The notes below the pieces were generated by a model. It did no database searches, was not told the DNA's origin, and worked only from the letters and a program-made list of their open reading frames with translations. A program made the position numbers and the translations under genes. A stretch of DNA of 15,870 bases from a candidate division KSB1 bacterium (GTDB lineage: Bacteria > Zhuqueibacterota > JdFR-76 > DREG01): the NCBI GenBank assembly GCA_022566355.1, contig JADFJB010000109.1, positions 1-15,870 on the forward strand, given 5' to 3'. Of the stretch, positions 12,822 through 15,509 are shown in pieces (positions within the stretch are counted from its first letter, which is position 1; every line of letters starts with the position of its first letter).

Positions 12822-13265
12822 TTCGGACCTTTCAAAATTTTATCAATTTAAGAAGATAATTTTACAAATAGAGTTATGCCAATGCGATCATCCTTAAAAT
12901 GATTCGGACGATTTCAATAAGATTAGAATTAAGGTTCATCCGGGATTGGTTTGCAAAACGGTATGCAAAAATGATCTCAAAATCCTAAAACCGAATTTCG
13001 AATCCCGTAACAAGATAAAATCAAAACTCCAAATTCGAATCCTTTAAAAATATTTTATCCTTGTTTACTTTGTAATTCATGAAATGTGCAAATAGACCTG
13101 GCAGGTTTCTAACTCCATATTTTTACGAATTTATTGCTTTCTTAGAAAAAACCTGCCAGGTTTTAGATTCACACCCGACATTAATATAACTTATTTAGGA
13201 TTAGAAAACGTCGATTTTTTGAGATTCAGAGATGATTCCGTCTAATTCGGTGGCTAACTTAATTA
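12822..13265. other. 444-bp intergenic region between trpG and purD
   Basis: No gene is supported. It contains a degenerate inverted pair (13007-13021 with 13052-13067, around AACAAGATAAAAT and ATTTTATCCTTGTT), a direct pair TTCGAATCC (12998-13006 and 13034-13042, approximate), and the inverted ACCTGGCAGGT elements listed separately. A weak minus-strand promoter-like pair TTGGCA (12877-12882) and TATCTT (12853-12858), 18 bp apart, could serve purD. Confidence 0.45.
13094..13163. repeat. Inverted pair of ACCTGGCAGGT palindromes
   Basis: AGACCTGGCAGGTTTCTAA at 13094-13112 faces TTAGAAAAAACCTGCCAGG beginning at 13142, forming long arms with two extra A residues on one side and a loop of about 29 bases. 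Each arm is itself palindromic. On the minus strand the right arm reads AAAACCTGGCAGGTTTTTT, a small hairpin followed by T residues about 100 bp after trpG, so it may also stop the trp transcript. Confidence 0.6.
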
Positions 13266-13841
13266 TCAAAAAGCCTGCGTTTTTTCCAGCCAATTCGCAA
13301 TGATCTTGAAACCTTCCGAAGTTAAAATGGATTCAGGGTGAAATTGAACGCCATAAACCTGGTGAATATTGTGTTGGATAGCCATAATCAAATCATCTTC
13401 GGTATCTGCGGTAATTTGCAATTCATTGGGCACAGATTTCCGGTCTATAATTAACGAATGGTATCTCGTTGCTGCAAATGGCGATGGAACTCCTGCAAAT
13501 ATTTCATTTCCCATGTGCCGGATTAAAGCAGTTTTACCATGCACCGGTTCCGGAGCCCGGATAATGTTTGCACCAAAAACCTGTCCGATGCATTGGTGGC
13601 CTAAACATACACCTAAAATCGGGATGGTCTGGTAAAATTGTCTAATGACATCACAACACACTCCGGCATTGTCTGGCGTGCCGGGGCCAGGAGAAATTAC
13701 AATTCCAGCCGGTTGTAATTCTGCGATTTCATCCGGAGTAATCTGATCATTTCTCACCACTTTTAAGGATGGCTCTAATTGGCCAAAATAATCAACCAGG
13801 TTGTAGGTGAATGAATCGTAATTATCGATAAATAAAATCAT
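13266..13841 (-). CDS. trpG: Anthranilate synthase glutamine amidotransferase subunit
   Basis: This is component II of anthranilate synthase, a class I glutamine amidotransferase that releases ammonia from glutamine for TrpE. From the ATG at 13839-13841 it has 191 residues, the normal length. Motifs are ILFIDNYDSFTYNLVDYF (2-19), SPGPGTP (50-56), the nucleophile elbow GVCLGHQ with Cys79, HGK (101-103), and the catalytic His168-Pro-Glu170 in YGVQFHPES. A longer frame from 13883 exists, but the ATG chosen is preceded by GAGGG at ideal spacing and matches family N-termini. The start lies inside trpE (20-bp overlap), giving coupled subunit synthesis. PabA is very similar in sequence; the Trp attenuator upstream argues for TrpG. 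Confidence 0.96.
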   Translation of the reverse strand: MILFIDNYDSFTYNLVDYFGQLEPSLKVVRNDQITPDEIAELQPAGIVISPGPGTPDNAGVCCDVIRQFYQTIPILGVCLGHQCIGQVFGANIIRAPEPVHGKTALIRHMGNEIFAGVPSPFAATRYHSLIIDRKSVPNELQITADTEDDLIMAIQHNIHQVYGVQFHPESILTSEGFKIIANWLEKTQAF

Positions 13842-15306
13842 GGATTCCCTCATCTGCTTTTTCAATTGCCATGCGTAAAGCAAGCGCTTTATTGATGGTT
13901 TCCTGGTATTCGTTTTTAGGAATACTATCCGCTACAATTCCTGCTCCAGCCTGCAAGTACAGTTTGTTATCCTTCGCAATTATGGTTCGAATTGCGATGC
14001 ACATATCCATATTGCCGGAATAATCGAAATACCCGATTGCGCCAGCATAAATTCCTCGTTTCTGCTTTTCTAATTCATGGATAATTTCCATGGCACGTAT
14101 TTTCGGAGCGCCGGAAACAGTCCCTGCCGGAAATGCAGATTTAAAAGCATCGACAGATGTAAAGCCTTCCTTCAATTCTCCAGTCACTCTTGAGATAATA
14201 TGCATCACATGGGAATAACGCTCGATGGTTTTGAAATCGCTTACTTTAACACTGCCATGCCTGGATACCCGGCCCATATCATTCCTGGCAAGATCGACCA
14301 ACATGATATGCTCCGCAAGTTCCTTCGGATCATGCAGCAGACTATCAGCCAGCTTATTATCTTCTTCGCTGGAATTCCCTCTTGGCCGTGTGCCGGCAAT
14401 CGGAATAATTTCCAGGTTGTTTTTTTCTGCCCGAATGAGCGGTTCCGGCGAAGATCCGATAATTTGGTAGCCGACAAAATCAAGGTAATACAAATATGGC
14501 GACGGATTTACGGTTCGTAATGACCGGTAAACCTGGAAAGGATCGCCGGAAAACGCTACCTCAAACCGTTGAGAAAGAACCACTTGAAAAATGTCACCGG
14601 CATAAATATGATCCTTTCCCTGCCGGACAGCTTCTTCAAATTCCGATTCACTAAAGTTACTCTTGAATTGATCCAATGATGCCGAAAAATTCAATTCAAC
14701 GGAAAATGGCCGGTTTAATTTTTCCAACAACTGATCCAATCTTCTTTGCCCATCACGGTACAAATGTGGTATATGGCTATCCTGATCGACAAAAACATTG
14801 GCAATAAGGATTACCTCATTCTTCAAATGATCGAAAGCAACCAGGTTGTCATAAAATGCCATTACAGCATCTTCGCTGCCTATTTTATCCTGTTTTGGCT
14901 CAGGCAGTGTTTCAATGGATCGAATCATATCATAGCCAACGAATCCTAGTACTCCGCAGGTAAATTTGGGCAGCCCTTCTACGGAAATCGATTGATATTC
15001 TTTAAGATAGGATTCCAGCAAACTAAAGTAATTATTCTTTGCAATGTGGTTTGCATTAAACTCATCGATGACTGTTTGGGAATCTAAGGATGAAACCACC
15101 CGAAATGGCTGCTGGCCGATAAATGAATACCTGCCTAGCTGCTGCCCCTTTTCTACGCTTTCGAGCAAGAAGGAGTAACTTCCTTCTTCTCTTATTTTCA
15201 GATAAGCAATAACCGGGGTGATAAAGTCGGCATTCAACTTGCGGTAAACCGGGACTATTGTCCTGGGTTTTGCTAATTTTTCAAATTGTTCGAAAGTCAT
15301 GGCCAT
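13822..15306 (-). CDS. trpE: Anthranilate synthase component I
   Basis: This 494-residue chorismate-utilising enzyme makes anthranilate, the first committed step to tryptophan. The N-terminal regulatory domain contains SYSFLLESVEKG (43-54); the LLES motif is the tryptophan feedback site. The catalytic domain shows HIMLVDLARND (333-343), PAGTVSGAPK (393-402), GAIGYFDYSG and GAGIVADSIPKNEYQE (454-469), all conserved Mg and chorismate contacts. The start is ATG 15304-15306 or the in-frame ATG at 15298-15300; the SD (GTGAG) is poor, perhaps because initiation follows antitermination. A terminator ends 14 bp before the gene, part of the attenuator. Other trp genes are not in the window; purD lies downstream. 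Confidence 0.97.
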   Translation of the reverse strand: MAMTFEQFEKLAKPRTIVPVYRKLNADFITPVIAYLKIREEGSYSFLLESVEKGQQLGRYSFIGQQPFRVVSSLDSQTVIDEFNANHIAKNNYFSLLESYLKEYQSISVEGLPKFTCGVLGFVGYDMIRSIETLPEPKQDKIGSEDAVMAFYDNLVAFDHLKNEVILIANVFVDQDSHIPHLYRDGQRRLDQLLEKLNRPFSVELNFSASLDQFKSNFSESEFEEAVRQGKDHIYAGDIFQVVLSQRFEVAFSGDPFQVYRSLRTVNPSPYLYYLDFVGYQIIGSSPEPLIRAEKNNLEIIPIAGTRPRGNSSEEDNKLADSLLHDPKELAEHIMLVDLARNDMGRVSRHGSVKVSDFKTIERYSHVMHIISRVTGELKEGFTSVDAFKSAFPAGTVSGAPKIRAMEIIHELEKQKRGIYAGAIGYFDYSGNMDMCIAIRTIIAKDNKLYLQAGAGIVADSIPKNEYQETINKALALRMAIEKADEGIHDFIYR

Positions 15307-15320
15307 AAGTTACTCACAAC

Positions 15321-15349
15321 AAAAAAGCCCACCGGGATAAGTGGGCTTT
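15321..15349 (-). terminator. trp attenuator terminator hairpin (3:4)
   Basis: On the minus strand AAAGCCCAC (15341-15349) pairs perfectly with GTGGGCTTT (15324-15332) around an eight-base loop, followed by a run of T. It lies between the leader peptide and trpE and would end transcription before the operon when it forms. Confidence 0.9.
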
Positions 15350-15440
15350 GTAAATTCATCATTGATTTTTAATATCAGGACATACAAATTCCACATAGTT
15401 TACTATACCACCACCAGGAATCGTTATCGGAATTGTATGT
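15321..15440 (-). promoter_or_regulatory. trp operon ribosome-mediated attenuator
   Basis: Four segments can pair in exclusive ways on the minus-strand transcript. Segment 1, ACATACAATTCC (15429-15440, leader codons 6-9), pairs with segment 2, GGAATTTGTATGT (15380-15392), over 12 bp with one bulged base. Segment 2 extended, GTGGAATTTGTA (15383-15394), pairs with segment 3, TACAAAGCCCAC (15341-15352), over 10 bp with a 2x2 internal loop. Segment 3 pairs with segment 4 in the terminator. The Trp codons lie between segments 1 and 2, so a ribosome stalled there would cover segment 1 and free segment 2 to form the antiterminator. This is the classical logic; the pairings are read directly from the sequence. 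Confidence 0.88.
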
Positions 15441-15455
15441 TTTAAAGTTATTCAT
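15375..15455 (-). CDS. trpL: trp operon leader peptide with three consecutive Trp codons
   Basis: A 26-codon frame starts with ATG at 15453-15455 and ends with TGA at 15375-15377. It begins MNNFKTYNSD and contains SWWWYS, with TGG-TGG-TGG at 15408-15416 (residues 14-16). It sits 69 bp upstream of trpE, between a consensus promoter and the attenuator terminator. The peptide itself has no expected function; translation of its Trp codons senses charged tRNA-Trp. There is no clear SD, only an A-rich stretch before the ATG, which is the one unusual element. Length and position match known trp leader peptides. Confidence 0.88.
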   Translation of the reverse strand: MNNFKTYNSDNDSWWWYSKLCGICMS

Positions 15456-15482
15456 TTTTTTGATTTTACTTTGCTTGAACAA

Positions 15483-15509
15483 ATTATACAATTTAGAAAT
15501 AGTTGTCAA
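15483..15509 (-). promoter_or_regulatory. trp operon promoter
   Basis: On the minus strand a perfect TTGACA (15504-15509) and a perfect TATAAT (15483-15488) stand 15 bp apart. Transcription would start around 15475, giving a leader of about 20 bases before trpL. The spacing is two bases shorter than ideal, which may weaken an otherwise consensus promoter. No TrpR-type operator palindrome is visible. Confidence 0.7.

Follow-up and report, generated by a model that had tools for sequence, protein, structure and literature searches.

A very probable ribosome-mediated attenuator of trpEG in a candidate division KSB1 bacterium and codon-exchanged leaders in its phylum

Does the short region upstream of trpE in this candidate division KSB1 genome hold a classical, ribosome-mediated transcription attenuator, and is the arrangement shared within the phylum? 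We analysed the window, that is, the whole stretch of 15,870 nt, together with upstream regions from related genomes. A sequence-only reading of this DNA had proposed that a promoter, a leader peptide with three consecutive Trp codons, 1:2, 2:3 and 3:4 pairings and a terminator 14 nt before trpE lie together here, and all of these parts were found on the minus strand.

The leader region upstream of trpEG

15504..15509, minus strand: −35 element TTGACA, exact consensus match; a similar element lies 5' of the leader in 19 relatives
15483..15488, minus strand: −10 element TATAAT, exact consensus match, with a spacer of 15 nt to the −35 element
15375..15455, minus strand: leader peptide ORF MNNFKTYNSDNDSWWWYSKLCGICMS plus stop, 26 codons, matched by covariance model R1
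15429..15440, minus strand: segment 1, ACATACAATTCC, codons 6–9; 1:2 duplex −14.7 kcal/mol
15408..15416, minus strand: three consecutive Trp codons (codons 14–16), the proposed sensing site, read from the sequence
15380..15395, minus strand: segment 2, TGTGGAATTTGTATGT, codons 21–26, partner of segment 1 or segment 3; its core aligns to AGTGGG of relatives
15341..15352, minus strand: segment 3, TACAAAGCCCAC, 3' arm of the antiterminator, overlapping the 5' arm of the terminator; 2:3 duplex −11.8 kcal/mol
15321..15349, minus strand: intrinsic terminator (3:4), AAAGCCCACT-TATCCC-GGTGGGCTTT plus T-run
13822..15306, minus strand: trpE, anthranilate synthase component I (TIGR00564, 580.7 bits, cut-off 517.7)
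13266..13883, minus strand: trpG, amidotransferase component (TIGR00566, 227.1 bits, cut-off 121.05), overlapping the end of trpE

From promoter to terminator the parts occupy 15509–15321 of the minus strand. The promoter 5' of the leader ORF is of the sigma-70 type and was passed over by a generic scan with 16–18 nt spacers because of its 15-nt spacer. A promoter-like match to TTGA(C/T)-N15-19-TAnnnT was present 5' of the leader in all 20 leaders checked, with spacers of N16–19 in the 19 relatives, the match in L004 lying farther upstream than the others. No clear Shine-Dalgarno sequence was seen before the leader ATG. The start of trpE is listed at the ATG at 15306 and is possibly at 15300, where most relatives' matches begin; the end of the T-run lies 14 nt from the former and 20 nt from the latter. 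Since purD is the next gene after trpG, trpEG stands alone in the window.

The 1:2 pairing joins ACATACAATTCC (codons 6–9) to GGAATTTGTATGT (codons 22–26), in agreement with the proposal that this stem uses codons 6–9 and the last codons of the peptide. Both competing stems had also been placed largely within the leader frame, which is correct for the whole of 1:2 and, for 2:3 (GTGG..TTTGTA with TACAAA..CCAC), for the 5' arm only, segment 3 lying after the stop. The 1:2, 2:3 and 3:4 pairings are mutually exclusive, and segment 3 is common to antiterminator and terminator. As in leader-peptide attenuators, a WWW ORF precedes trpE, a terminator lies between this ORF and trpE, 2:3 excludes the terminator and 1:2 excludes the antiterminator.

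The adjacent Trp codons, the competing 1:2, 2:3 and 3:4 pairings and the terminator before trpE resemble the trp attenuator of E. coli (trpL; RF00513). In E. coli trpL segment 1 includes the Trp codons and segment 2 comes after the stop, whereas in the present leader segment 1 is located 5' of these codons, which occupy the 1:2 loop, and segment 2 is inside the ORF. RF00513 (Trp_leader) gave a sub-threshold match at the same place and strand (20.3 bits, E = 4, gathering threshold 41), and RF01859 (Phe_leader) matched weakly around the terminator (23 bits against a gathering threshold of 55), although the codons here are for Trp and not Phe. At gathering thresholds, no Rfam family was found in the window or in 20 relatives.

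Dinucleotide shuffling of the 320-nt upstream region gave a W.?W ORF in 69 of 2000 shuffles and such an ORF followed by a terminator in none (0/2000). The leader RNA folded at −36.1 kcal/mol (z = −3.23), and 0/200 shuffles folded as well. When the same ORF-terminator filter was applied to the regions upstream of 567 ORFs (150 aa or longer) that served as non-trpE controls, seven matched, all seven at trpE itself in opposite-strand loci, so that the number of genuine controls passing was 0. The motif TGGTGGTGG alone is uninformative genome-wide (51 copies versus 52 of the reversed pattern); it is the surrounding context, not TGGTGGTGG itself, that sets the locus apart.

Conservation and coevolution of the pairings before trpE

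The lineage had been described as another diderm, non-proteobacterial phylum. The presence of an LptE gene in the genome indicates a diderm, and in an rpoB tree the window genome and genomes of the same phylum formed their own clade (98/97) among rows of Calditrichota, Fidelibacterota and Ignavibacteriota; the row for L004, which represented a wrong ORF and had a very long branch, was disregarded. Within the window's phylum a leader precedes trpE in 24 of 29 loci, including L088, where it lies farther upstream and was found only by the covariance model. The closest genome, of the same family (L084), carries MMHFNSSYKTKRNNWWWYYLQSGFCMFD in the same arrangement. Leaders also occur in Fidelibacterota (L005, L008, L009, L011, L012, L022), in Ignavibacteriota (e.g. 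L014, L031, L034, L045) and in some Calditrichota (L017, placed by rpoB, and L024), while the automated filter found none in the Deltaproteobacteria, Omnitrophota or Clostridia loci fetched. A filter match in a gammaproteobacterium (L071) was poor and was judged spurious.

According to the sequence-only reading, relatives that keep trpE and lose the Trp codons, or lose the pairings without compensation, would speak against attenuation. Such loci exist, with no leader before trpE in L106, L107 and L110–L112 of the same phylum and in L006 and L007 of the Calditrichaceae; they read as lineage-specific absence and not as refutation. Elsewhere among the relatives, Trp-codon runs, terminators and both competing pairings upstream of trpE are kept with compensating changes, as that reading had anticipated for a functional leader. 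The distance from stop to terminator is about 23–42 nt in the FCB-group leaders before trpE, and that from terminator to trpE ranges from 13 to >100 nt among relatives.

We permuted segments among 33 leaders, those of seven opposite-strand trpE loci being left out. The mean energy of the 1:2 duplex was −17.9 kcal/mol for own partners versus −12.7 kcal/mol across species, and that of 2:3 was −17.4 versus −11.8 kcal/mol, with 0 of 20,000 permutations reaching the own value in either case, a result to which base composition differing among species could contribute through exchange of AT-rich with GC-rich segments. The window's own 2:3 duplex ranks only ninth against the 33 segment 3s, and its own 1:2 duplex third. 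The pairing of aligned cores is free of this base-composition weakness: with 13 leaders aligned, 96% of cells were paired in the 2:3 core (AGTGGG with CCCACT) and 100% in the 3:4 core, both cores having changes on both sides, and sliding the aligned cores by 1–3 columns dropped pairing to 35–53%. All three segments have changed together in L004 (AGCGGG/CCCGCT/AGCGGG) and in L091 (GGTGGG/CCCACC/GGTGGG). These covariation tests cover the Trp leaders.

In nine loci (L094, L096, L098, L100, L101, L104, L105, L108, L109) two tandem terminator-like hairpins follow the leader before trpE, for example GCCGTG..CACGGC and then GGCGCTGTG..CACAGCGCC; pairing is possible between the first hairpin's 3' arm and the second one's 5' arm.

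Codon exchange with the downstream pathway

The covariance model R1 was built from 13 trp leaders and run on 82 genomes of the phylum, where 54 gave a match at E <= 0.01. In the window genome the single match at this threshold was 15321–15455 (E 6.9e-18, the window being in the training set). We examined 71 R1 matches, eight of them training members. Going by the first recognised gene that follows, 16 matches precede trpE, 18 trpB2, 8 a serK/SbnI-like gene, 16 chorismate mutase or DAHP synthase, 3 cysK and 3 hisG, and 7 have none; classes were assigned by simple residue-density scoring together with tblastn against eight reference proteins. The seven matches lacking a recognised gene or a leader may be terminator-only false matches. 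For L195 the frame scored by the script was the wrong one, and the likely ORF, MNPTFFHNSAQYFWFWRFYYYTGSGKGVS, is aromatic.

In the held-out matches the codon that is dense in the leader fits the next gene: Trp for trpE, trpB2 and serK-like genes, and Tyr/Phe, His or Cys for the others. Tyr/Phe-run leaders precede chorismate mutase and DAHP synthase in L193, L214, L215, L218, L220, L222, L225, L231, L239, L240, L244, L246 and L247, and a mixed WFWxWYYH run precedes these genes in L188, L197 and L199. His leaders lie before hisG in three R1 matches, namely L203 of the window's own family (MIHTITHSLHHHSHHCSTGSG), L227 and L235, and His-run peptides were found upstream of hisG in three further genomes (L210, L211, L212); these six are candidate histidine attenuators. 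Cys-run leaders with terminators precede cysK in L204:1500–1660 (MINPASYHFNFCCCACSCLTSDNNGKIMCLCAT, CCCACSC) and in L252 (CCCCC), which we regard as candidate cysteine attenuators; in the third cysK match, L242, the Cys run is not clear, and the window genome itself showed no Cys leader before any of three cysK-like genes.

R1 had only Trp leaders in its training set, and for this reason the way in which codon and pathway change together is the strongest evidence for the mechanism. We think it probable that the phylum senses several amino acids with one recurring, multi-purpose scaffold, in which it is mainly the repeated codon that varies (Trp; Tyr/Phe; His; Cys). In this scaffold, AGTGGG ... 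CCCACT ... AGTGGG, segment 2 would carry the sequence of the terminator's 3' arm in frame, and the sensing codons would be in the 1:2 loop. Natural exchanges of this kind, in which the RNA scaffold stays similar, are useful for asking about descent, duplication or convergence, and searches with the model bring up leader peptides that annotation has missed.

Trp, Phe and Tyr codons occur together in some trp-type leaders (L181, FWFWYWYYYY; L176, L180, L188), which may respond to all aromatic amino acids. Genes of the TIGR01415 trpB2 type stand behind Trp leaders, directly or via an SbnI/SerK-like serine-kinase gene, in L185, L186, L189–L192, L194, L201, L202, L216, L217, L219, L221, L223, L224, L226, L228–L230, L233, L234, L236, L238, L243, L248 and L250. 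In the serK/SbnI-like matches trpB2 comes next where the sequence reaches (e.g. L190, L194). TrpB2 is reported to use O-phosphoserine, so an adjoining serine kinase under Trp control makes pathway sense, and serK-like and trpB2 genes are in this way linked to tryptophan control.

Proposed mechanism, alternatives and genomic context

We modelled cotranscriptional folding with exposed RNA only, from which segment 4 was still missing. With a ribosome at the first or the last Trp codon the probability of 2:3 was 0.83; it was 0.13 when no ribosome was present and 0 when one stood at the stop codon. With the full-length RNA at equilibrium the terminator was favoured in all states, P(3:4) being about 0.7 even with a stalled ribosome. 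Since the terminator wins on the complete RNA, the model would require antitermination to be kinetically trapped. The E. coli trp switch is likewise understood as kinetic.

Taken together, the sequence parts, their conservation, the coevolution of the paired segments and, in related genomes, the agreement of the repeated codon with the gene that follows make it highly probable that the locus is a classical, ribosome-mediated transcription attenuator of trpEG that senses charged tRNA-Trp. We infer the start of transcription, translation of the ORF, stalling and termination itself. RNA polymerase would start a few tens of nt 5' of the leader ORF, trailed by a ribosome. When charged tRNA-Trp is scarce, the ribosome would stall at codons 14–16 and mask or separate segment 1, so that segment 2 could pair with segment 3 while segment 4 has yet to be transcribed; the 2:3 antiterminator would then block the terminator and allow transcription of trpEG. 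As 12 nt separate the end of segment 1 from the Trp codons, masking of this segment by the stalled ribosome may be only partial. With plentiful Trp, a ribosome reaching the stop codon would cover segment 2, so that 3:4 could form and transcription would end before trpE, while without translation 1:2 would sequester segment 2 and the terminator would again form.

Several other explanations can be set against these data. The hairpin could by itself terminate transcripts coming from upstream, and the locus would then be an unregulated terminator and promoter region 5' of trpE in which the ORF arose by chance; with 0/2000 shuffles and no genuine control region passing the filter, and with segment coevolution and the codon-pathway match, we give this next to no credence. 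Sensing of Trp by a T-box that binds tRNA-Trp, or by binding of a TRAP protein, has precedent in the trp genes of Firmicutes, where both are known, but no T-box covariance match was obtained up to E = 10, the leader has no series of GAG/UAG triplets, and it is the Trp-run ORF that is conserved instead, which makes this equally hard to credit.

The terminator is only 14–20 nt 5' of trpE, and the leader peptide and hairpin could accordingly control translation of trpE and not its transcription, by acting on access to the trpE start or on coupling. The T-run after the 3:4 hairpin in the leaders examined, the position of the trpE start outside the hairpin and the variable distance to trpE among relatives all argue against this, and it seems very unlikely. 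There is a slight chance, a little better than for the foregoing, that the attenuator is joined by trans action of the released leader RNA or peptide, as reported for peTrpL of Sinorhizobium meliloti (PMC7298713), whose trpL is likewise the leader peptide of a Trp-gene transcription attenuator. Many of the leader peptides do carry an SG motif near their end; however, nothing points to a trans target, and this likeness is explained by RNA pairing, because the in-frame AGTGGG of segment 2 encodes the shared motif.

Ribosome-mediated attenuation of trpEG, as preferred here, is already a textbook mechanism, and leader peptides with regulatory codons likewise lie 5' of amino-acid genes in the attenuators of another phylum, the Actinobacteria (PMC1262725). 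The authors of a 2010 study described their Firmicutes case as, to their knowledge, the first leader-peptide system shown outside Proteobacteria and Actinobacteria (PMC2965389). Earlier predictions in neighbouring phyla are possible, for example in the comparative study by Lopatovskaya and colleagues (2010), as cited in PMC4833913. In the library searched we found no paper on this phylum, and the phylum-wide use of the attenuator for several amino acids is apparently undescribed. With our data, the known range of ribosome-mediated attenuation would come to include a deep diderm lineage that appears to use it as a general control of amino-acid operons.

As to the rest of the pathway, trpE, trpD, trpC and trpA share one contig in a genome of the same family (G002), while in the window genome trpD is on another contig (C108), behind tRNA-Gln, and no Trp leader was found at the trpD region. 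Neither trpC, trpA, trpB nor hisG was found in the window genome (G000, listed as 98.5% complete), and the pathway that this leader would serve is thus incomplete in the assembly, a point against the attenuator reading. The trpD contig ends directly after trpD in a tandem array of 13 copies of ACAAAGGC (L141:2503–2608), which suggests an assembly gap, and such a gap is the simplest reading of the absence of trpC to trpA; for hisG, trpC, trpA and trpB together, assembly gaps or real auxotrophies through true loss are possible. Between trpG and purD, the window holds a perfect 13-bp inverted repeat, ACCTGGCAGGTTT / AAACCTGCCAGGT (13096–13161, arms 40 nt apart), possibly a terminator or a repeat element.
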